This document shows positions 38,653-61,341 of a stretch of 64,000 nt of DNA, in pieces. This DNA comes from Sediminicoccus rosea (GTDB lineage Bacteria; Pseudomonadota; Alphaproteobacteria; Acetobacterales; Acetobacteraceae): contig NZ_CP137852.1 in assembly GCF_033547095.1 (NCBI RefSeq), positions 4,985,001 to 5,049,000 on the forward strand, given 5' to 3'. The position numbers were made by a program, and so were the translations under genes. Numbering within the stretch: the stretch's first letter is position 1; each line of letters opens with the position of its first letter. Under the pieces are notes generated by a model that made no database searches, was not told where the DNA came from, and saw only the letters and a list, made by a program, of their open reading frames with translations.

Positions 38653-40632
38653 TCAAAACACAAACCGCGATCCGATGATCACGCTGCGCCCCGGCGTCTG
38701 GAAGCCGTTCACCGGCTCCCACTTGCTGTCCGTCAGGTTGCGGCCCTCCAGATAGACATTCACCTGCGGCAACACCGGATAGGTCGCCGTCAGATTGAAC
38801 AGCGTGCCGGACTTGTTGTAGCGCATCGCGTTCACGCTCGCCCCGGAGTCCAGGTAGGTGGCGAAGGGCCCCTCGGGCGAGCGGCCGGTGAACAGCACCT
38901 GCGGCGTGATGACGAGGCCCGGCAAGGGCTCCACCCGCGCGGAGACGGTGACGATGCTCTCCGGCCGGCGCGGCAGGGGCTGGCCGGTCTGGCCGTCCGT
39001 TGCATCGGTGATGGTCCAGGATACGTCGGTGGTCAGCCAGGGGGCCGGGCGCAGTGCCCAGTTCAGCTCCACGCCCTTGATGTTGGCGCTCGCCACGTTC
39101 ACCAGCGTGTTGAAGCCCGCATTGAAGTTGATCAGGTTCGTCACGCGCTGCTGGAAGAAGGTGAAGCCCACCGTCGAGAAGCGCGCCTGGTTGAACGCCG
39201 CGAAATCCATCTCCGCGCCGAATTCGTAGCCGATGCTCGTTTCCGGCTGCAGGTTCGGGTTGCCGCGGAAGGTATTGCCGATGACGCCGAAGCGCTGGTT
39301 CAGCGACGGCGCGTTGAAGGCGGTGCCGCCCGAGGCACGGATGCGCACGCTGGTCTCGGGCACCGCCAGCACCGCGCCCACGCGCCAGCTCGTATAGCCC
39401 GTGTAGTCGGAGACGTTGTCGTAGCGAACGCCGCCCGTGACATCGAGGGCATTCCAGAAGCGGTACTGCATGGCGACATGCCCGGCCGTGCTGTCCTGCT
39501 GCGCATTGGTGACGGAACGGAAGGGCACGTTGCCGGCGAAGCTCGTCACATCCTCATGCGCGTAGTTCACGCCGAAGGTGATGGCGCCATCGGTCGCGGG
39601 ACCGAAGCCGGGCAGGCGCACGACATTGCCCCAGTCCACGCTCTGCCGCGTGCCGCGATAGTAATCCTGCGTCGTGGCGCTGCTGAGGATGTCCGGCAGG
39701 TTGGAGTAGGTGCGCCGGTCCTGCGTGACGGCGAGGCGCAGGCCAGTGGTGAGCCGCCCGTCGAAGAGGTTGGATTCGCCGCGGATCTGGCCCACCCAGC
39801 GGCGGTCATCGCCCGTGTAGTTCGGGTCGTCGCGCGGCACGCTGTCGATGCCGCTGCGGTTCTCCCGCCAGCGCAGCTGGCCCTCGACGCGGGTGCCCGG
39901 CATGAAGGTGTAGCCCAGCCGCGCCGTGGCATTGGTGCTGTTGAAGCCATCCGTCTCGCCCAGCGTGCGCCAGAAGCGCGAGGCGGTGGCGTTCGACGCC
40001 CGGGTGGAGATGTTGTTCAGGCTCGCGAGATAGTCGAACTGGCCCACGGTGCCGGCGATGCCGCCACCGAGCCGCAGCGTGCTGCTCGAGCCATAGGCCA
40101 CCTCGCCATAGGGCATCACCTGGCGATCCGCCGGGGCGCGGCGGGTGACCAGGTTGATCACGCCGCCCACCGCGGCACTGCCGTAGAGCGAGGAGGCGGG
40201 GCCGCGCAGCACCTCGATGCGCTCGATGTCGAAGAGCGTCTCATTGCCGAAGTTGAAGGCGCCATTCGCGTCGGAGGGGTCGTTCACCGGCACGCCGTCC
40301 ATGAGGACGAGGGTGGAGCGGCTGGAATTGCCGCGGATGAAGACGCTGGCCTGCTGCCCCGGCCCGCCCGACTGCGCGACGCGCAGGCCCGGCACGGTGG
40401 CCAGCGCCTCGGCCAGGTTGGCGAAGCCGTTCTCCTCGATCGCCCTGCGGTCGATCACCGTGATGGAGGCGGGCACGCGGGCCAGCGGCGTGGGAACGCC
40501 GGTGGCGGTGACGATGGTGTCCGGCACCGCGATCAGATCCTGCTCGGGCGAGGAGCGGGGCGGGGAATTCTGGGCAAGGCCAGGCGTTGCCGACGCCAGG
40601 ATGGCGGCGGTGGTGAGCAGGATACGGCGCAT
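38653..40632 (-). CDS. btuB: TonB-dependent vitamin B12 receptor (BtuB-like)
   Basis: 659-residue outer-membrane receptor. A signal peptide (MRRILLTTAAILASATPGLAQ) is followed by a TonB-box-like DTIVTATG, the plug domain (VLMDGVPVNDPS, IERIEVLRGPASSLYGSAAVGGVINLVT) and a 22-strand-type barrel ending in a C-terminal phenylalanine (SVIIGSRFVF). The cobalamin riboswitch in its leader is the main reason for the BtuB assignment. The ATG at 40632 has a gggggatt site; the open frame to 40842 runs into the riboswitch. No btuCDF transporter or cobalamin synthesis gene is nearby. Confidence 0.92.
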   Translation of the reverse strand: MRRILLTTAAILASATPGLAQNSPPRSSPEQDLIAVPDTIVTATGVPTPLARVPASITVIDRRAIEENGFANLAEALATVPGLRVAQSGGPGQQASVFIRGNSSRSTLVLMDGVPVNDPSDANGAFNFGNETLFDIERIEVLRGPASSLYGSAAVGGVINLVTRRAPADRQVMPYGEVAYGSSSTLRLGGGIAGTVGQFDYLASLNNISTRASNATASRFWRTLGETDGFNSTNATARLGYTFMPGTRVEGQLRWRENRSGIDSVPRDDPNYTGDDRRWVGQIRGESNLFDGRLTTGLRLAVTQDRRTYSNLPDILSSATTQDYYRGTRQSVDWGNVVRLPGFGPATDGAITFGVNYAHEDVTSFAGNVPFRSVTNAQQDSTAGHVAMQYRFWNALDVTGGVRYDNVSDYTGYTSWRVGAVLAVPETSVRIRASGGTAFNAPSLNQRFGVIGNTFRGNPNLQPETSIGYEFGAEMDFAAFNQARFSTVGFTFFQQRVTNLINFNAGFNTLVNVASANIKGVELNWALRPAPWLTTDVSWTITDATDGQTGQPLPRRPESIVTVSARVEPLPGLVITPQVLFTGRSPEGPFATYLDSGASVNAMRYNKSGTLFNLTATYPVLPQVNVYLEGRNLTDSKWEPVNGFQTPGRSVIIGSRFVF

Positions 40633-40761
40633 GGGAATCCCCCGTGTTGCGCGTGACGACATGCCGGACAGGACATGCGCCCCGCCCGACGGCTGGCGTC
40701 GAGCTCGCAAACGGAACAGGTCCGTGGCACCGGTGCACCCCGCCCGGCACGCGCGAGAACA
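40633..40761 (-). promoter_or_regulatory. leader between riboswitch and btuB
   Basis: 129 bp of untranslated leader between the riboswitch core and the btuB start. It is GC-rich and could form the expression platform hiding the gggggatt ribosome site next to the ATG. No open frame with coding character is seen. Confidence 0.45.
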
Positions 40762-40950
40762 ACTCTGCGAAGGCCGGTCTCCTGGCTCGCGGGTCACCGC
40801 CCTGGTCCGCCTTCTCACCCCCCGGCAGGGAAGCAATGGCATCTGGACCGGGGCTCACCGCCTACAGTTGCGGGGGCAGCCGCGGATTGACCGGCATGGA
40901 GACCGGCGCGTCACGCGTTCCCGTTTCAACCCTCATCGGGTCACCTTCAC
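40762..40950 (-). ncRNA. cobalamin (adenosylcobalamin) riboswitch
   Basis: On the minus strand the conserved blocks occur in order. A 5' gaaggtgacccgatgagggttg opening with gaaacgggaac is followed by the invariant B12-box-region sequence gctgcccccgcaactgta. Then come ggtgagcc and a variable arm with gcttccctgccgggg, and the closing gacccgcgagccaggagacc with ggcc. These match the cobalamin riboswitch consensus closely. It lies directly upstream of a TonB-dependent receptor and should repress it when cobalamin is plentiful. The 5' boundary is about 23 bp after the ExoD gene's stop codon. Confidence 0.93.
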
Positions 40951-40972
40951 ATGGCACGGAGTCTAGACCGCC

Positions 40973-49258: not shown

Positions 49259-49334
49259 CGCGTCAGCGCTTCATGTTGCCCAGGCGCGTCAGCGCTTCAT
49301 ATTGCCCAAGCGCGTCAGCGCTTCATATTGATCG
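49259..49334 (-). repeat. 26-bp tandem repeat, three copies, spanning the flgE stop codon
   Basis: Units at 49259-49284, 49285-49310 and 49311-49334 begin with the same cgcgtcagcgcttcat; the first two are full length and the third diverges after 20 bp. The flgE stop codon lies in the third unit. Read on the minus strand, each unit carries atgaagcgctga, so the last codons and stop of flgE are repeated twice more downstream. The unit length is not a multiple of three, so the copies are not in one frame. Confidence 0.9.
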
Positions 49335-50592
49335 TGTCCTGCAGCATCTCGTCCGCGGCGGTGACGAGCTTCGTGTTCGCCGTGTAGGCGCGCTGCGCCA
49401 CGATCAGCTTGGTGAACTCCGTGCCGATGTCCACGTTGGACTTCTCCAGCGCGCCGACGACGAGCTTGCCCACGCCATTGCTCGCGACATCGGTCACCTG
49501 CGCCTCGCCGCTCTCGACGGTGCGCATGAAGCCCTGCCCGTCCAGGCGCTGCAGCTTGTCGGCATCGCTGAAGGAGACGAGCGGCACGCGCGCCACCGTG
49601 CGCGACTGGCCATTGTCGTAGTTCACGACGATGTCGCCATTGTCACGCACCGCAAGGCCGGAATAGCCGCCGGGCGGCACACCGTTCTGCGAGAGGTTGC
49701 GGAGCGAGAAGTCCCGGCCCGCATATTGCGTGATTCCCTGCGCCACGCCGAAGCGGCCGAGGTTCAGGGTGATGGGCTGGTTGCCCAGGCCGAAATCCAT
49801 CTCGAAGGGGAAGTCCACCGCCGTATTGGCGAGGCCGGTGACGCCGTTGAAGCTCTCGATCGTACCATTGGTGCCGAAGATGACGGGCACGTCCACGCCG
49901 CCCAGCACGGGATTGGGCGTGATGGTCATGTTCCAGCCGCGCGGCGTGCCATCCGTCATCTGCGCGAAGGTGACCGTGACCGGATTGCGGTTGCCCACCT
50001 GGTCGTAGATCTGCACCTGCGTGCTGTAGGTCTTGGCGTCGGCCGGCGTGGCCGGCGGATCAAGCGCGGGCAGGTTGGCCGACATCTCGATGACGGAGGT
50101 GGCGATGGGGTTGAACACCTCCTGGCTCACCCGCACGGGTGCAAGCGTCGTGCGGTCCACCACGCCCTCGCCATTCACCGGCCAGCCCTGCAGGAAGTAG
50201 TTGGAGCCGTTCACCAGGTAGCCGTCGCGGTCCATGCGGAAATCGCCGGCGCGGGTGTAGAATTGCCGCTCGTCGAACAATGGCAGGCCACCCGCCGTGC
50301 CGCGCGACTGCGCCACGCTGAAGAAGCCCTGCCCGCCGATGGCCAGGCCCAGCGGGTTCTCGCTCTGCTCCACCGTGCCCTGCACCGTGTTGGTGAAATC
50401 GGGCCGCGCGATGACCGAGCCCGGCGAATGCCCGTTCGAACTGGACTGGGTGACGAGGTCGGTGAAGTTGGAGTCGATCCGCTTGAAGCCGGTGGTCTGG
50501 CTGTTCGCCAGATTGTCCGAGATGTGGCCGAGCGAGCGGGACTGCGCGTTGATGCCTGAGATCGCCGTGGTCATCGCACCGAAGAGCGACAT
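49315..50592 (-). CDS. flgE: flagellar hook protein FlgE
   Basis: 425-residue hook protein. N-terminal MSLFGAMTTAISGINAQSRSLGHISDNLANSQTTGFKR is diagnostic, as is the C-terminal NVDIGTEFTKLIVAQRAYTANTKLVTAADEML coiled-coil. The middle holds the hook D1/D2 beta domains. It polymerises on the rod outside the cell. The ATG at 50592 lies 33-35 bp downstream of a predicted sigma-54 promoter start. The long open frame upstream over fliK is an antisense shadow. The C-terminal end lies in the tandem repeat. Confidence 0.95.
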   Translation of the reverse strand: MSLFGAMTTAISGINAQSRSLGHISDNLANSQTTGFKRIDSNFTDLVTQSSSNGHSPGSVIARPDFTNTVQGTVEQSENPLGLAIGGQGFFSVAQSRGTAGGLPLFDERQFYTRAGDFRMDRDGYLVNGSNYFLQGWPVNGEGVVDRTTLAPVRVSQEVFNPIATSVIEMSANLPALDPPATPADAKTYSTQVQIYDQVGNRNPVTVTFAQMTDGTPRGWNMTITPNPVLGGVDVPVIFGTNGTIESFNGVTGLANTAVDFPFEMDFGLGNQPITLNLGRFGVAQGITQYAGRDFSLRNLSQNGVPPGGYSGLAVRDNGDIVVNYDNGQSRTVARVPLVSFSDADKLQRLDGQGFMRTVESGEAQVTDVASNGVGKLVVGALEKSNVDIGTEFTKLIVAQRAYTANTKLVTAADEMLQDTINMKR

Positions 50593-50634
50593 GCTGGGGC
50601 TCCATTGCCGAGGGGATTGCTCTGGCGCGGGCCT

Positions 50635-50650
50635 CGCAGGATGCGTGCCA
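50635..50650 (-). promoter_or_regulatory. sigma-54 promoter for flgE
   Basis: On the minus strand TGGCACGCATCCTGCG matches the sigma-54 consensus TGGCAC-N5-TTGC with the exact GG-N10-GC spacing; only the first T of TTGC is changed. Transcription would begin about 12 nt downstream, leaving a ~33-nt leader before the flgE ATG. An activator-type palindrome lies 22 nt upstream of the GG. Confidence 0.75.
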
Positions 50651-50671
50651 GGGCCGCGGGGCCCGGCATGC

Positions 50672-50684
50672 GGCAGAATCTGCC
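50672..50684. promoter_or_regulatory. 13-bp palindrome in the flgE/fliK divergent gap, candidate FlbD site
   Basis: GGCAGAATCTGCC is a perfect inverted repeat (6-bp arms, one central base). It lies between the two opposed sigma-54 matches, so a bound activator could serve both directions. A related palindrome is upstream of fliF. FlbD, encoded in the same cluster, is the natural candidate ligand, by analogy with ftr sites in Caulobacter. Confidence 0.55.
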
Positions 50685-50746
50685 CGCCACCGGCAGGAAC
50701 CGGCCCACCGCACGGCCGAATATGCCGCCAGGACACCGCCGCGCGC

Positions 50747-50762
50747 TGGCCCAGGCCTTGCT
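50747..50762 (+). promoter_or_regulatory. sigma-54 promoter for fliK-flgD
   Basis: TGGCCCAGGCCTTGCT matches TGGCAC-N5-TTGC with one change (A to C in the -24 box) and the correct GG-N10-GC spacing. It would start transcription near 50773, about 72 nt before the fliK ATG. The shared palindrome is 63 nt upstream of the GG, the range typical of sigma-54 activator sites. Confidence 0.7.
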
Positions 50763-50844
50763 GCCCACCGTCACGGCGCCGTCGGCGTGGCGCGGGAGGT
50801 GCGGGCATGGGGCCCGCCTGGCGCGGGATGGAGGAGAGACCGGC

Positions 50845-52449
50845 ATGGAGGGCGCATCCGCCATCGGCCCGGCGCCCGTACTCGCGATGGGCGCGCCGCC
50901 CATCCCCGCCGAGCCGGGCATGGAGGCCGGCTTCCAGGAGGTGTTGAACCGCAGCGCGGCGCTGCTCGCACCACCGCCGCCTTCCCTCCCGCTGGTGACA
51001 CCCACGCCCGTCCCGGCCGCACCGGAGATCGCGGCCGTGCTTCCCATGCCGCAGGCGACACCGGCGCTCCCCGTCGCGATGCCGCAGGCCGCGCTGTTGC
51101 CCGGGCCTGCCCCGGCCGCGCCGGAAATTGCCATGCTGCCGACCCCGCCACAGGCCATGGCGGGGCTTCCCGCCCTGCCGGTGACGCCGCAGGCCGGACC
51201 GACACCTGAGCCCACATCCACCGAGGCGCCCGACACGGCACCGCCACCCGTGCCGCCCCGCCTCCCGACCATCACGGCGCCGCCGCCGGGACCGGCCGAG
51301 GTCGCGCCGCCCCTTGTGGCGCCGGAGCTCCAGGCCCCGCAGATGGCCGAGTTGAGCCTTCCCTCCGAAGCGGCCCCCCCGCCCATTGCCGCGCCGCTCG
51401 AGACAGAGGCGGCGCCGGAACCGGCCCCACCGGACGAGCCCCGCGCGGAGGAGCCGAGCCCGTCGGAGGTGGAGGCCCCGGCGCTGCCCGCCCTGGGGCA
51501 AGCGCAGCCCCTCCCCGCCATCCCGCCCGTGATCCCGCCCGGCAGCATGCAGGAGACAATGCCGCCCGCCATGGTCGTGGCCCTGGCGCCACGCGCCGGA
51601 GCCCCCATGCCCGCGCCGCCACCCGATGCGCAACCGGCCGAGACCGAGGGCCTGGCCGCCGCGGAGCTGGCCCTGCCGGGCGAGGCGAGCGCAGCGCCGA
51701 AACCCGGCCCGCGTGCCGCCATGCCAGCCCCTGCCCCGGGTGCGGTTCCGGCCCCAGCCACCACGCCCAGCCCAGGCACGGCGGATGATGCGCCAGAGGC
51801 CCTGCCAGCGCCGGGGCCGGCTGGCACCATGGAGGCCGAGGCGCCCCCCACGCCGGCAACGGCCACTCTGGCGCTCAGCACGCCGGCCGGCATCGTCCCG
51901 AAGGAGGCGGCTTCGACCACGCCGCAACCCACGCCGCTGCACCTCGCGCCTGAACCCACCCTCCTCACCGGCGAGTTCACGCCGCAGGCGACGCGTGCGG
52001 CCGAGGCACCGCCCCCCGCACCACCGCAACCACCGCCGGCCATGCGGCAGGTGGCGCCCATCGCCGTCGCCCTCGCCTTCGCGCCCACCGGCGCGGGCGG
52101 CTTCCAGCTCAGCCTGGAGCCTTTCGAATTGGGCCGCGTCGAGATCCGGGTGCACCGCGAAGGCGAGGCGCATGCCGTCCGCATCATCGCCGAACGGCCA
52201 GAGACGCTGGCCCTGCTGCTGCGCGACCGGCAGGAGCTGGATCGCGGCCTGGCGGATGCGGGGCTGCGCGTGGAGGCGAAGGGCATCGAGTTCTCGCTCG
52301 GCACCTCTTCCGGCGAGCGCGAGCAGCGCCCGCGCGATGAGGCACGCAGCGGCGCGGCGGCGCGCGGCATGGGCCGCATGACGGGCCCGGCCCTCGCCGA
52401 AGCCACCCCTGCCCGCATCCAGCGCGGGCTTCTCGACCTCAACATCTGA
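50845..52449 (+). CDS. fliK: flagellar hook-length control protein FliK
   Basis: 534-residue FliK. Residues ~30-390 are a disordered Pro/Ala-rich region, and the C-terminal Flg_hook domain is clear: LAFAPTGAGGFQLSLEPFELG, IEVRVHREGEAHAVRI-like sequence, then helix LRDRQELDRGLADAGLRVEAKG. FliK measures hook length and switches export from hook to filament proteins. Low-complexity N-terminal regions are usual for the family. The ATG at 50845 has a gaggagagac site and fits the promoter; the open frame to 50605 is not supported. flgD follows 18 bp later. Confidence 0.88.
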   Translation: MEGASAIGPAPVLAMGAPPIPAEPGMEAGFQEVLNRSAALLAPPPPSLPLVTPTPVPAAPEIAAVLPMPQATPALPVAMPQAALLPGPAPAAPEIAMLPTPPQAMAGLPALPVTPQAGPTPEPTSTEAPDTAPPPVPPRLPTITAPPPGPAEVAPPLVAPELQAPQMAELSLPSEAAPPPIAAPLETEAAPEPAPPDEPRAEEPSPSEVEAPALPALGQAQPLPAIPPVIPPGSMQETMPPAMVVALAPRAGAPMPAPPPDAQPAETEGLAAAELALPGEASAAPKPGPRAAMPAPAPGAVPAPATTPSPGTADDAPEALPAPGPAGTMEAEAPPTPATATLALSTPAGIVPKEAASTTPQPTPLHLAPEPTLLTGEFTPQATRAAEAPPPAPPQPPPAMRQVAPIAVALAFAPTGAGGFQLSLEPFELGRVEIRVHREGEAHAVRIIAERPETLALLLRDRQELDRGLADAGLRVEAKGIEFSLGTSSGEREQRPRDEARSGAAARGMGRMTGPALAEATPARIQRGLLDLNI

Positions 52450-52467: not shown

Positions 52468-53133
52468 ATGAGCGGCAGCATCGGCAGCACCCAGCCCGCG
52501 ACCGGAGGGACGGCGGCGCGCACCGCGCCGACCACCGGCATCGGCTCGGACTTCAACACCTTCCTGACGCTGCTGACGACGCAGCTGCAGAACCAGGACC
52601 CCACCAATGCGATGGACGCGAACCAGATGACGCAGCAGCTGGTGCAGTTCGCCACCGTCGAGCAGCAGATCAAGGTGAACACGAATCTCGAGCGGCTGCT
52701 GAGCGTGGAGCAGGGCAACCAGCTCGTCTCCGCCGCGCCGCTGATGGGCCGCGTGGTGGAAGTGGAGAGCGACCGCCTCTCGCTGCAGGGCGGCCAGGCG
52801 CAATTGCGCCTGCCGGCGGCGGGCGAGGCCCGGCGCGCGCTCGTCACGGTGATGGATGCGAGCGGCCGGACGCTGCGCAGCGCCGAGGTGCCGCTGGGCA
52901 CGACGCCCACGAACTGGAGCTGGGACGGGCGCGATGCCGCCGGCACGCAACTGGCCGACGGCGCCTATCGCTTCGCCATCCGCGGCATCGGCGCCGATGG
53001 CGGGACGGTGACGATCAGCGCCGGCGTGCTGGCGCGCGCAACGGCGGTGGACCGCAGCGAAGGCGAGGTGCGGCTCGGCCTCGGCGCGCTCTCGGTGAAC
53101 TTCGACAAGCTGCGCGGCCTGGCGGCGAATTGA
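52468..53133 (+). CDS. flgD: flagellar hook assembly (capping) protein FlgD
   Basis: 221-residue FlgD. The N-terminal motif GSDFNTFLTLLTTQLQNQDPTNAMDANQMTQQLVQFATVEQQ is diagnostic, followed by the FlgD Tudor/Ig-like domains with ASGRTLRSAEVPLG and WSWDGRDAAGTQLADGAYRF. It caps the growing hook. It is coupled in position to fliK (18 bp). A 133-bp stretch separates it from the preferred fliF start; this holds the palindrome and sigma-54-like match described separately. Confidence 0.93.
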   Translation: MSGSIGSTQPATGGTAARTAPTTGIGSDFNTFLTLLTTQLQNQDPTNAMDANQMTQQLVQFATVEQQIKVNTNLERLLSVEQGNQLVSAAPLMGRVVEVESDRLSLQGGQAQLRLPAAGEARRALVTVMDASGRTLRSAEVPLGTTPTNWSWDGRDAAGTQLADGAYRFAIRGIGADGGTVTISAGVLARATAVDRSEGEVRLGLGALSVNFDKLRGLAAN

Positions 53134-53185
53134 GCGTGATTTCGCTTTGAACGCCGGGCGTTAAGCCTTTCGCAAGAGGGGGTGC

Positions 53186-53198
53186 GGCAAGTTCTGCC
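53186..53198 (+). promoter_or_regulatory. palindrome upstream of fliF, candidate FlbD operator
   Basis: GGCAAGTTCTGCC has GGCA and TGCC arms around a 5-bp centre and shares 10 of 13 bases with the flgE/fliK palindrome. It ends 4 nt before the GG of a sigma-54-like match, a position where binding could block rather than activate. Known FlbD of Caulobacter represses fliF through such a site. Confidence 0.45.
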
Positions 53199-53200
53199 CA

Positions 53201-53216
53201 GGGCACAGGATGAGCC
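53201..53216 (+). promoter_or_regulatory. possible sigma-54-like promoter for fliF
   Basis: GGGCACAGGATGAGCC contains GGCAC and the right GG-N10-GC spacing, but the -12 box reads GAGC rather than TTGC. If real, the fliF ATG at 53267 must be used. A half-conserved CtrA-like TTAA-N7-GCAA is at 53161-53175. Either one or neither may drive fliF. Confidence 0.35.
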
Positions 53217-53266
53217 TCCGGGAGAATTTGCATGTTGGTGTGCAGCGCGCCGCGTCGGATGGTGCC

Positions 53267-54943
53267 ATGCAAAACCTGATCGGCCAGCTGCGCGCCCTGG
53301 GCCGGGTCCAGCTGATCGCCCTGGCCGGCGTCGGCCTCGGGGTTCTCGGCCTGATCGGCTTTCTCGTGCTGCGGGCGGGAACGCCGCCGATGGGCCTGCT
53401 CTATGGCGACCTCGAGACGCGCGATGCGGGTGCGGTGGTCGCCGCGCTCGAACGCCAGCGCGTGCCCTATCGCCTCGCCGCCGGCGGCACGCAGGTGCTG
53501 GTGCCGGCCGAGGATGTGCCGCGGCTGCGCCTCGCCCTGGCGCGCGAGGGCCTGCCTGCCGGCGGCTCCATCGGCAATGAGCTGTTCGACCGCAATGAGA
53601 GCCTGACCACCACGCCCTTCCAGCAGGAGATGAACCGCCTGCGCGCAATGGAGGGCGAGCTGGCGCGCAGCATCCGCGCCCTCAGCGGCGTGCGCGCGGC
53701 GCGTGTGCATCTCGTGCTGCCCCGCCGCGAGGCCTTCTCGCGCGAGCGGGCCGAGGCGCAGGCGAGCGTGCTGCTCACCATGCAGGGCGCGCAGCGGCTG
53801 GACCGCGAGGGCGTGCAGGCGGTGCTCCACCTCGTCGTCGCCGCCGTGCCCGGGCTGCGGCCGCAGAACGTCTCCATCGTGGACAGCCGCGGCGAATTGC
53901 TGGCGCGCGGCGGCCAGGCGCTGAGCGGCCCGGCGGGCGCGCAGACGCAGGAGGAACTCCGCCGCGGGCAGGAGGCACGCCTCTCCCGCGCCGTGGAGGA
54001 GATGCTGGAGCGCGTGCTGGGCCCGGGCCGCGTCCGCGCTGAAGTCGCGCTCGAAATGGATTTCGATCGCGTCGAGACCCGAGAGGAGCGCTTCGACCCC
54101 GAGAACCAGGTGGCGCGCAGCACGCAGTCCAGCAACGAGACGAGCCGCAGCATCGAGGGCGGGCCGGTCGGCGTCGGCAACAACCTGCCCGGCGCGGAAC
54201 CCGGCGGCGGCGGCAATGGGAATCAGGAAAGCCGCCAGGAAGAGACCACGAATTTCGAGATCGGCCGCACCCTCCGCAACGTGCTGCGCGAGCATCCCGT
54301 CACGCGGCGCCTCACCGTCGCCGTGCTGGTGGACGGCGTGACCGAGGCGCAGCCCGACGGCACCACCGCCAAGCGCGAGCGCACGCCCGAGGAGATCGGC
54401 CGCATCGCCGGCCTGGTGCGGAACGCGGTCGGCTTCAACGAGCAGCGCGGCGACCGCGTGGAGGTCGTCTCCATGCGCTTCGCGGAGCCGGAGGAGGCGC
54501 CGCGCGAGGCGGGCTGGCTCGGCCTCGACATTCCGCAGGCGGTGCTGGCGCGGCTGCTGGAGACGGCGGTGATCGGCGTGCTGATCCTGCTGACGCTGCT
54601 GCTGGTGGCGCGGCCGGTGGCGCGGAAGCTCTCGCTCTCGCTGAACCCCACGCCGGCGCTGGCCGGGGCGGGCGGCGGCGTGGCGGGCGCCGCGATCACC
54701 GGCGAGGGCGGCGCCGCGCTGCCGGGCCAGCCGGGCGACCCGGCCCTGCCCCCGGGCGAGCGGCCGGCCGGGCTGCTCGGCGCGGAAGGCGGCGCGGGCG
54801 AGGAGCAGATGATGAACCTCGCGCATGTCCAGGGCCAGCTTCGCAGCTCCTCCATCGCGCGCATCACCAGCCTGGTGGAGGCCTACCCGGACGAATCCCT
54901 GCTGGCGGTCCGCCGCTGGCTCACACCGGAGGATGACACGTGA
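53267..54943 (+). CDS. fliF: flagellar MS-ring protein FliF
   Basis: 558-residue FliF from the ATG at 53267; an in-frame ATG at 53210 would add 19 residues but overlaps the promoter-like element. A first membrane helix ([20 protein letters not shown]) is followed by the ring-building motif domains with [22 protein letters not shown], the GNELFD segment, and a second helix ([22 protein letters not shown]) near the C-terminus. The end carries the FliG-binding tail. It forms the inner-membrane base of the motor. Its stop overlaps the fliG GTG start by 4 nt. Confidence 0.93.
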
Positions 54944-55968: not shown

Positions 55969-56295
55969 ATGAGCGACGCGACGGAAGACTTTATCCCGAC
56001 CACGCCGGGTGCCCCCGCGGATGGCGAGCGCGCGCCACCCCCGCCGCGCGACCTGGAGGCGGTCTATGACATCCCGGTGCAGGTCAGTGCCGTGCTCGGC
56101 CGCGCCACCATGCAGGTGAGCCAGCTGCTCAAGCTCGGCCGCGGCGCCGTGGTCGAGCTGGACCGCAAGCTCGGCGAGGCGGTGGACATCTACGTGAACA
56201 ACCGCCTCGTCGCGCGCGGCGAGGTGGTGATGGTGGAGGACAACCGCCTCGGCATCACCATGACCGAGATCGTGAAGGCGGACCGCGCCACATGA
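55969..56295 (+). CDS. fliN: flagellar motor switch protein FliN
   Basis: 108-residue FliN. The C-terminal SpoA domain is complete: IPVQVSAVLGRATMQVSQLLKLGRG, ELDRKLGEAVDIYVNNRLVARGEVV, and RLGITMTEIV. The N-terminus is short and acidic/proline-rich. With FliM and FliG it makes the rotor switch complex and the export-gate base. It starts 24 bp after fliG and overlaps the flbD start by 4 nt (ATGA). Confidence 0.93.
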   Translation: MSDATEDFIPTTPGAPADGERAPPPPRDLEAVYDIPVQVSAVLGRATMQVSQLLKLGRGAVVELDRKLGEAVDIYVNNRLVARGEVVMVEDNRLGITMTEIVKADRAT

Positions 56296-57662
56296 CGCGC
56301 CTCCTGATCCTCGGTTCGCTGGGGGGCGAGCTGGGCCATGCGGCCCGCATCGCCGCCGCGCGCGGCGCGCAGCTCACCCAGGTGGAAGGCGTGACCGCGG
56401 CGCTGGAGCGGCTGCGCGGCGCGGGGGCGGACCTGATCCTCGCCGATGCGGCGCATGACCTGCCCTGGCTGCTGGAACGCCTGGCCGAGGAGCGCATCGC
56501 AACCCCGCTCATCGCCTGCGGCCGCAATGCCGATGCGGATTCCGTGCTGCGCGCCATCCGCGCCGGTGCGCGCGAATTCCTGCCCCTGCCGCCCGAGGCG
56601 GAGCTGATCGCCGCCATGCTCCAGGCGGTGACGGCGGAGCACGAGGCGCCCATCGGTCGCGACGCAGTGATGCAGGCGCTGCTCGCCCGTGCGGGGCAGC
56701 TCGCCCGCGCCGAGGCTTCGGTGCTCATCACCGGTGAGAGCGGCACCGGCAAGGAGGTGCTGGCGCGCCACATCCATGCCGCCTCGCGCCGGGCGCGCGG
56801 CCCCTTCGTCGCGCTCAACTGCGCGGCCCTCCCGGAGGCGCTGCTGGAGAGCGAGCTCTTCGGGCATGAGCGCGGCGCCTTCAGCGGCGCGGTCGCCGCC
56901 CGCAAGGGCAAGTTCGAGCAGGCCGACCGCGGCACGCTGCTGCTGGACGAGATCGGCGAGATGGATGTGCGGCTGCAATCCAAGCTGCTGCGCGCCATCC
57001 AGGAGCGCGAGGTGGACAAGCTCGGCGGCACCCAGCCGGTGAAGGTGGATGTGCGCATTCTCGCCGCCACCAACCGTGACCTCGAGGCCGAGGTGCGCGC
57101 CGGCCGCTTCCGCGAGGATCTCTATTTCCGCCTGAATGTCGTGCAGCTTCGCATCCCGCCGCTGCGCGAGCGCGCGGGCGACATCCTGCCACTCGCCGAG
57201 CATTTCGCCGCGCGCTATGCGGCGGCCAACGGCCTGCCCGCGCGCCCCCTCTCGCCCGCCGCGACCGCGCGGCTGATGGCGCATCCCTGGCCCGGCAACG
57301 TGCGTGAGCTGGAGAACGCGCTGCACCGCGCCGTGCTGCTCGCCAGCGGCCGGGAGATCGGCGCGGAGGCCATCGAGCTGGGGCATGCGCCGCCCGCCAG
57401 CGTGACGACGGGCGTGGCCCCAGTAGCCGCGCCGCCACCCGCCGATCCCATCGCCGCCCTGGTCGGCCGCCGCATGGAGGAGGTGGAGCGCGAGCTCATC
57501 CTGGAGACGCTGGGCCGTTGCCTCGGCAACCGCACCCGCGCGGCGGAAATCCTCGGCATCTCGATCCGCACGCTGCGCAACAAGCTGGCCGAGTATCGCG
57601 GCCAGGGAGTCGCCGTGCCGCTCGCCCCCGGGCAGCTGCCCGAGAGCTGGCGCGTCGCGTGA
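56292..57662 (+). CDS. flbD: sigma-54-dependent flagellar regulator FlbD
   Basis: 456-residue sigma-54 activator. A receiver-like N-terminal domain (~110 residues) is followed by the AAA+ domain with Walker A GESGTGKE (148-155), the sigma-54 contact loop GAFSGA (195-200, a T-to-S variant of GAFTGA), Walker B LLLDEIGEM, and a C-terminal Fis-type helix-turn-helix (LGRCLGNRTRAAEILGISIRTLRNKLAEY). FlbD in Caulobacter activates hook/filament genes and represses fliF. Placement between fliN and flhA matches the FlbD assignment. It should act on the sigma-54 sites in this cluster. Confidence 0.88.
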   Translation: MTRLLILGSLGGELGHAARIAAARGAQLTQVEGVTAALERLRGAGADLILADAAHDLPWLLERLAEERIATPLIACGRNADADSVLRAIRAGAREFLPLPPEAELIAAMLQAVTAEHEAPIGRDAVMQALLARAGQLARAEASVLITGESGTGKEVLARHIHAASRRARGPFVALNCAALPEALLESELFGHERGAFSGAVAARKGKFEQADRGTLLLDEIGEMDVRLQSKLLRAIQEREVDKLGGTQPVKVDVRILAATNRDLEAEVRAGRFREDLYFRLNVVQLRIPPLRERAGDILPLAEHFAARYAAANGLPARPLSPAATARLMAHPWPGNVRELENALHRAVLLASGREIGAEAIELGHAPPASVTTGVAPVAAPPPADPIAALVGRRMEEVERELILETLGRCLGNRTRAAEILGISIRTLRNKLAEYRGQGVAVPLAPGQLPESWRVA

Positions 57663-60604: not shown

Positions 60605-61341
60605 CCACGCCCCGCCTCATCGCCCTCGCCTCTGGCAAGGGCGGCGTCGGCAAGACCTGCCTCGCCATCGGCCTCGCCCAGGCGCTCGCTGAATCGGGCG
60701 GCCGCGTGGCGCTGGTGGATGGCGATCTCGGCCTCGCCAATGTGGATGTGCAGCTCGGCCTCGACCCCCGGCATGACCTGGGCGACGTGCTGACGGGGCG
60801 ATGCACGGCGGAGGCCGCCCTGGTGCATCACCCCGCGGGCTTCGCCGTGCTGCCGGGCCGCTCCGGCTCCACCGCGCTGGCCACGCTCGACGGCGCGGGG
60901 ACGCGCGAGGTGACGGCCATGCTGCGCGGCCTGCCAATGGATTGGGTGGTGCTGGACCTGGGGGCGGGAATCGGCGCGGCGCAGCGCGGCCTGGCCGCGA
61001 TGGCCGACCAGCTCGTCGTCGTGGCGACCGAGGAACCCACCTCGCTGACCGATGCCTATGCCGTGCTGAAGCTGCACCGGCGCGATGCGCCGGGAGCGCA
61101 GGCCGGGCTGCTGGTGAACATGGCCGCGCAGCCCGCGCGCGTGCATGCGGCGCTGGATGCCGCCTGCCGCGGCTTCCTCGGCCAGGGCCTCGCGCTCTTG
61201 GGCTCGGTCCGGCGCGATCCGCGCATCCCCGCCGCGATCCGTGCCCAGGCGCCGCTGCTCACGCGCCACCCGAACACGCCCGCGGCAGAGGATCTGCGCC
61301 GCCTCGCCACGCAGCTGCACCGGGCGCGACAAGCCGCGTGA
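60601..61341 (+). CDS. flhG: FlhG/FleN-type MinD-like ATPase
   Basis: 246-residue MinD/ParA-type ATPase. The deviant Walker A SGKGGVGKT (residues 11-19), the VDGDLGLANVDVQLG motif and WVVLDLGAGI are clear. FlhG/FleN antagonises FlhF and limits flagellar number. It starts at the ATG at 60601, overlapping flhF (ATGA). A C-terminal membrane-targeting amphipathic helix is plausible in the last 15 residues but not certain. The large open frame to 59080 is a shadow of flhA and flhF. Confidence 0.92.
   Translation: MTTPRLIALASGKGGVGKTCLAIGLAQALAESGGRVALVDGDLGLANVDVQLGLDPRHDLGDVLTGRCTAEAALVHHPAGFAVLPGRSGSTALATLDGAGTREVTAMLRGLPMDWVVLDLGAGIGAAQRGLAAMADQLVVVATEEPTSLTDAYAVLKLHRRDAPGAQAGLLVNMAAQPARVHAALDAACRGFLGQGLALLGSVRRDPRIPAAIRAQAPLLTRHPNTPAAEDLRRLATQLHRARQAA

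Follow-up and report, generated by a model that had tools for sequence, protein, structure and literature searches.

In Caulobacter, the flaN and flbG flagellar units are divergent, and a 1993 paper by Mullin and Newton reportedly deals, going by its title, with their sigma-54 promoter and with ftr2 and ftr3 as 'downstream sequence elements'. The regulator FlbD in Caulobacter represses fliF via ftr4 and activates middle genes via ftr sites, while the flagellin genes are RpoN-dependent, according to the accessible part of PMC3930126. A further described enhancer is that of the NorR-controlled norVW genes, where three activator sites lie upstream of a sigma-54 promoter and are thought to act as a scaffold for the hexamer (accessible part of PMC2941729, citing Tucker 2010). 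Judged by titles and the openings of abstracts, our literature search found no description of an arrangement like the one presented below in Acetobacteraceae.

The window, meaning the whole stretch of 64,000 nucleotides of Sediminicoccus rosea DNA that was analysed, contains two divergent flagellar gene groups separated by a gap of 252 bp (50593-50844). The leftward group starts with the hook protein gene flgE (49315..50592, minus strand; Pfam, and NCBIfam NF004242 at 376.7 bits with a cut-off of 365) and was read from Pfam matches as flgE-flgK-flgL-flbT-DUF1217. The rightward group, also annotated by Pfam, starts with fliK for hook-length control (50845..52449, plus strand), followed by flgD (52468-53133, plus strand), and the fliK-flgD pair is marked by PF02120 and PF03963. 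The group continues with the MS ring gene fliF (53210..54943, plus strand), fliG, fliN, a gene for a FlbD-like activator, flhA and an flhF-like gene. Elsewhere in the window, a cobalamin riboswitch (RF00174, 108.8 bits; 40755-40963, minus strand) is located at the upstream end of a minus-strand ORF (38653-40842).

We consider the flgE-fliK gap, with a probability of about 85%, to be a two-way sigma-54 promoter with one common FlbD-type enhancer, FlbD binding and transcription being predicted features of it. Two outward-facing -24/-12 elements, identified by direct reading and by comparison with relatives, lie 97 bp apart and have exact GG-N10-GC spacing: TGGCACGCATCCTGCG for flgE (50635..50650, minus strand, reading from 50650 to 50635) and TGGCCCAGGCCTTGCT for fliK (50747..50762, plus strand). 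The corresponding transcripts would start near 50624 (minus strand) and 50773 (plus strand), respectively. Candidate elements were scored at 12 positions against TGGCACGNNNNTTGCW, with GG-N10-GC required. On both strands of the 64 kb, three sites reached a score of at least 10 out of 12, and all three, each with a score of 10, fall within the gap. The third of them (50623-50638, plus strand) overlaps the flgE element and was treated as incidental rather than as a promoter. When the homologous regions were dinucleotide-shuffled, 0.02% of 4150 shuffles gave a divergent pair with a summed score of at least 20, which is the value of the window. A looser sigma-54 pattern with at most two mismatches was not enriched in the window (310 matches vs 357.6 expected); therefore a sigma-54 match by itself is weak proof, and the weight rests on conservation. 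Combinations of a sigma-54 element (score of at least 9) with a motif site (score of at least 8) within 20-110 bp occurred four times in the window, three of them in the gap. Neither a sigma-70 promoter nor a terminator was found in the gap.

Between the two elements lie three ftr-like sites spaced by 20-22 bp and symmetric about the inter-promoter midpoint. Site 1, GGCAGAATCTGCC (50672..50684; arms of 6+1+6), has a positional weight matrix (PWM) score of 17.5, and at least 17 was reached in 2 of 5000 segment shuffles; its centre at 50678 is 28 bp from the T of the flgE element and 69 bp from that of the fliK element. Site 2, GGCAGGAACCGGC (50692..50704; PWM score 3.3), is degenerate in the window genome, and its centre at 50698 coincides with the midpoint between the promoters (48 bp to the flgE T and 49 bp to the fliK T). 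Site 3, GGCCGAATATGCC (50714..50726; PWM score 9.4), is centred at 50720, 70 bp and 27 bp from the two T positions, respectively. The summed score of the three positions was matched by none of 5000 segment shuffles. The PWM was built from 71 perfect GGCA-N5-TGCC palindromes in 60 distinct loci; its training drew on the flgE/fliK gaps including that of the window, so that site counts in these gaps are partly circular, whereas the flgF and fliF tests given below are free of circularity.

The earlier note had reported the two sigma-54 matches with their exact GG-N10-GC spacing and a palindrome at 50672-50684 between them, and direct reading bears out both. Its distances of 22 nt and 63 nt from the palindrome to the left and right GG are also exact, but the asymmetry that they imply is only apparent, the palindrome being one of three symmetric sites, of which the two weaker ones (sites 2 and 3) are absent from the note. 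The proposal of one enhancer common to both arms is backed by the comparative data, which point to the three-site array as the enhancer rather than to a lone palindrome.

Among the named FlgE relatives at 73-93% identity are those of Roseococcus species, of a Rubritepida MAG and of Acetobacteraceae MAGs. The genus set consisted of full-length FlgE from 17 of 21 genomes, and one locus with just 122 bp of upstream sequence (L030) was dropped from the pair count. The flgE-side sigma-54 element was present with a score of at least 9 in all 17 loci, and the fliK-side element, with the same score threshold and at 95-109 bp from the flgE element, in all 16 loci with enough upstream sequence. The element gaps are 95-97 bp in 14 of these 16 loci and 106 and 109 bp in the other two; L025 and L029 each have a further upstream match with the same score as the fliK-side element. 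In 15 of the 16 loci the two elements enclose a perfect GGCA-N5-TGCC.

At the family level, FlgE matches were found in 98 of 150 genomes, of which the best 70 were used and the 28 weakest matches left out. Together with 14 more genus genomes these gave 84 loci, one of them too short, and hence 83 upstream regions from 42 genera. A divergent pair with a summed score of at least 19 occurs in 78 of the 83 regions, vs 0.24% of 4150 shuffles; the remaining five have no good pair, with summed scores below 19. In a subset of 40 regions, the C-terminal part of fliK was detected opposite flgE, on the other strand, in 38. After exclusion of six of the 78 regions, with gaps of 241-290 bp, 72 loci formed the set for the phase test, and in 70 of them the best ftr site between the promoters scores at least 12, vs 0.9% of 1440 shuffles. 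Measured from the flgE element, the main inter-promoter peaks of the PWM score start at 33, 54 and 75 bp. Second sites with a score above 3 around the best site are commonest at -21 (26 of 70), +21 (16 of 61) and +14 bp (14 of 72), the most frequent spacing being 20-21 bp; the +14 bp sites are not accounted for by a 21 bp array. Outside the genus, 11 of 14 loci with a gap of 96-97 bp have the central site as the best one; inside it, this holds for 5 of 14 with a gap of 95-97 bp.

The promoter gaps of the 72 loci, all below 200 bp, cluster near 86, 96, 107, 121, 131, 143, 154, 165, 176 and 186 bp, with few values off these clusters (e.g., 172 bp). When gaps of 94-98 bp were excluded, the periodicity of the 44 loci left was reached by none of 5000 jittered sets, with R equal to 0.19 at 10.5 bp and the best R of 0.52-0.63 at 11.0-11.75 bp. 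Distances from the best site to the promoter are likewise periodic on each arm (none of 3000 jittered sets per arm, 47-49 bp excluded). The flgE arm favours a period of 11.0-11.25 bp (R of 0.78 vs 0.51 at 10.5 bp), and the fliK arm is nearly indifferent (R of 0.70 at 11.0 bp and 0.65 at 10.5 bp). The joint best period is 11.12 bp, and a bootstrap with one locus per genus (35 genera) gave 11.28 bp (11.08-11.48). Since the genera are related and not independent, this phasing evidence is suggestive. A joint repeat close to 11.1-11.3 bp describes the enhancer-promoter spacings better than 10.5 bp does, while neighbouring sites of the array are spaced by 20-22 bp.

Repeats near 11 bp are known for DNA loops in living cells. 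A more detailed reading, which we put forward tentatively and regard as rather doubtful, combines three elements: enhancer-promoter distances held by selection on one helical face; a single FlbD hexamer on three dimer sites spaced by two helical turns, two-fold symmetric and firing two opposing sigma-54 promoters; and an effective helical repeat near 11.1-11.3 bp, above the relaxed value of 10.5, as for unwound DNA in living cells. The almost equal fit of the fliK arm to 10.5 bp and the unexplained +14 bp sites lower the odds of this reading.

The same motif was found at other flagellar genes. With the PWM from the flgE/fliK gaps, one sigma-54-plus-site module was detected in each of 13 genus loci around FlgF/FlgG paralogues, namely in the window genome and 12 relatives. 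The sites are located at 25-27 and 49 bp in 11 of the 13 loci, at 36 and 59 bp in L031 and at 72 and 95 bp in L033; gene identity as flgF and gene order were established in the window genome only. There, the phased flgF module faces fliL (L156, 7392-7482) and has ftr-like sites at 26, 49 and 69 bp from the sigma-54 element, while the phased flgI module faces fliX (L157, 7422-7513) and has sites at 27 and 70 bp and a poor central site. The simple palindrome CGGCAG-N3-CTGCCG was rejected as a marker, its count in this genome (5 places) being barely above that of a control pattern (4). A palindrome pattern joined with the sigma-54 pattern gave 8 matches vs 0 for the control. Three of them, at offsets of 32-34 bp, are flagellar (flgE, flgF and flgI), and the remaining five, at 42-53 bp, were treated as chance. 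Upstream of the flagellin gene (L159, own genome C1:2642775), neither a sigma-54 element with a score of at least 8 nor a strong ftr-like site was found, and flagellin membership of the module set is therefore unsupported. Another strong ftr-like palindrome, GGCAAGACCTGCC (60649-60661; PWM score 16.3), is located in the gap just 3' of the flhF-like gene.

A further ftr-like site, GGCAAGTTCTGCC (53186..53198; PWM score 15.4), lies just 5' of fliF, and a score of at least 15 was reached there in 3 of 5000 shuffles. It is a candidate FlbD repressor site of the ftr4 type. The fliF set comprised 18 of 31 sequences (the window and L044-L073), the other 13 being without flgD or fliF within range. In 16 of the 18 loci a motif site with a score of at least 11.9 stands before fliF, two sites being present in L060, and no sigma-54 element with a score of at least 9 was found at it in 14 of these 16 loci (L048 and L064 have one each). 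Upstream of fliF in the window, TTAA-N7-GCAA (53161..53175, plus strand) was recognized by eye; on the basis of the CtrA consensus, we take it to be CtrA-like. TTAA-N7-NNAA adjoins the pre-fliF site in 11 of 15 relatives, as a raw count without a chance control. The layout at 53161-53198 looks like the CtrA-on, FlbD-off control of fliF in Caulobacter, and if so, flbD would exert negative feedback upon its own operon.

The genome has one rpoN gene. The sigma-54 activator that the earlier note placed in the same cluster is indeed encoded there, after fliN, by the FlbD-like gene (56292..57662, plus strand), whose product combines a degenerate receiver, an AAA+ domain and a Fis-type HTH according to Pfam. 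Its best NCBIfam match is the FlbD model NF050807 with 647 bits, under the cut-off of 750. The receiver domain (56292-56660) scores 21.9 bits in Pfam with a cut-off of 30.2, and its degeneration would fit control by FliX rather than by phosphorylation. FliX is encoded by a single gene, divergent beside flgI; it matches PF10768 (67.4 bits, cut-off 25) and stays under the cut-offs of all five NCBIfam FliX models among the matches listed. In total, the genome gave eight matches to the sigma-54 activator domain, including a weak one, so that FlbD is the best candidate but not the sole one. The array could accordingly be read as serving another of these eight proteins, which we judge to be very unlikely: flbD lies within the same cluster and fliX beside flgI, and the motif occurs both at flgE/fliK, flgF and flgI and, next to a CtrA-like match, ahead of fliF, which is the pattern of FlbD activation and repression in Caulobacter, as given in the accessible part of PMC3930126.

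The origin of the two-way layout was followed in other Alphaproteobacteria. The class search matched 58 of 115 genomes; 29 loci among the matches listed were used besides that of the window, and 15 were followed upstream. In 20 of the 29 loci flgD lies upstream of flgE on the same strand, in 18 together with fliK. Nineteen of these 20 have no sigma-54 element with a score of at least 9 within 420 bp of flgE, and in the remaining one a match with a score of 9 is located 336 bp upstream. Of the 15 followed loci, 7 have a divergent sigma-54 pair with a summed score of 21 left of fliK, the gaps being 167-234 bp; L190, L196 and L200, where the pairs are weaker (9+9 or 10+9), are excluded from this count. 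Of the seven, six have flgK on the opposite strand and four have ftr-like sites with a score of at least 8 between the elements. We infer an old two-way promoter, to the left side of which flgE was relocated in the Acetobacteraceae family; this suggests a structural gene switching sides of a retained two-way promoter.

These loci also bear on the view that the array serves the flgE promoter only, the fliK-side element being weak or unused and fliK-flgD being under another promoter. The strongest site of the gap is indeed on the flgE side, at 28 bp. In addition, two of the scored positions of the fliK element differ from the consensus applied here (TGGCCCA instead of TGGCACG). We nevertheless find this view very unlikely, given that the fliK-side element recurs in all 16 genus loci, in eight of them as TGGCCCG....CTTGC, that the ftr-to-fliK distances are periodic by themselves, that the seven class loci have a divergent pair left of fliK, and that the gap lacks a sigma-70 match. 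Chance production of GG-N10-GC and short palindromes without function by GC-rich DNA has a negligible probability, the comparative data having already refuted it to the extent possible from sequence: the looser sigma-54 pattern is unenriched in the window and 7 of its 11 motif sites with a score of at least 12 fall inside ORFs picked as likely genes, but the conservation and phasing across the family, the three-position score and the concentration of three of the four sigma-54-plus-site combinations in the gap all stand against it.

In the two-way promoter proposed here, FlbD dimers would fill the ftr-like sites and assemble into an AAA+ hexamer. Given that the array is phased with the two elements alike, a short loop would let this hexamer contact Esigma54 on either side, and IHF would probably not be needed. 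FliX would license FlbD after the early basal body is built; the hook and hook-junction genes (flgE-flgK-flgL) and the hook-length and hook-cap genes (fliK-flgD) would then start together, and FlbD on the pre-fliF site would shut the CtrA-type promoter of fliF-fliG-fliN-flbD-flhA. RpoN dependence, FlbD binding, the hexamer and the simultaneous firing of both arms are all predictions of this model. It offers an account of how a joint start could work for hook, hook-cap and hook-length genes located on opposite strands. The loci also constitute a natural series of enhancer-promoter spacings for a sigma-54 activator, from 27 to 114 bp and mostly in whole-turn steps, which makes the helical-phase rule and the idea of a three-site hexamer directly testable.

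Compared with the FlbD circuit of Caulobacter, as far as it is covered by the accessible part of PMC3930126, the S. rosea genome is alike in having sites both at hook genes and ahead of fliF, and in encoding FliX; it differs in the flagellin upstream region, which has no site here, and the site placement in S. rosea is known from sequence alone. The gap shares with flaN/flbG the divergent flagellar units, the sigma-54 promoter and the common ftr sites. In contrast to flaN/flbG, compared by the title of the paper, the sites lie here between back-to-back promoters, the leftward gene is flgE and there are three symmetric positions in the array. On sequence comparison the arrangement is thus not new in kind, with a precedent in flaN/flbG and counterparts in the 7 of 15 other alphaproteobacterial loci that have a divergent pair left of fliK. 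With norVW, as presented in the accessible part of PMC2941729, it may have in common three activator positions upstream of a sigma-54 promoter, here 20-22 bp apart and with a degenerate central one; unlike norVW, one array is in phase with two opposing sigma-54 elements. As the activator is a different protein, membership in the NorR type is not claimed, but the three-site array may work like the NorR enhancer.
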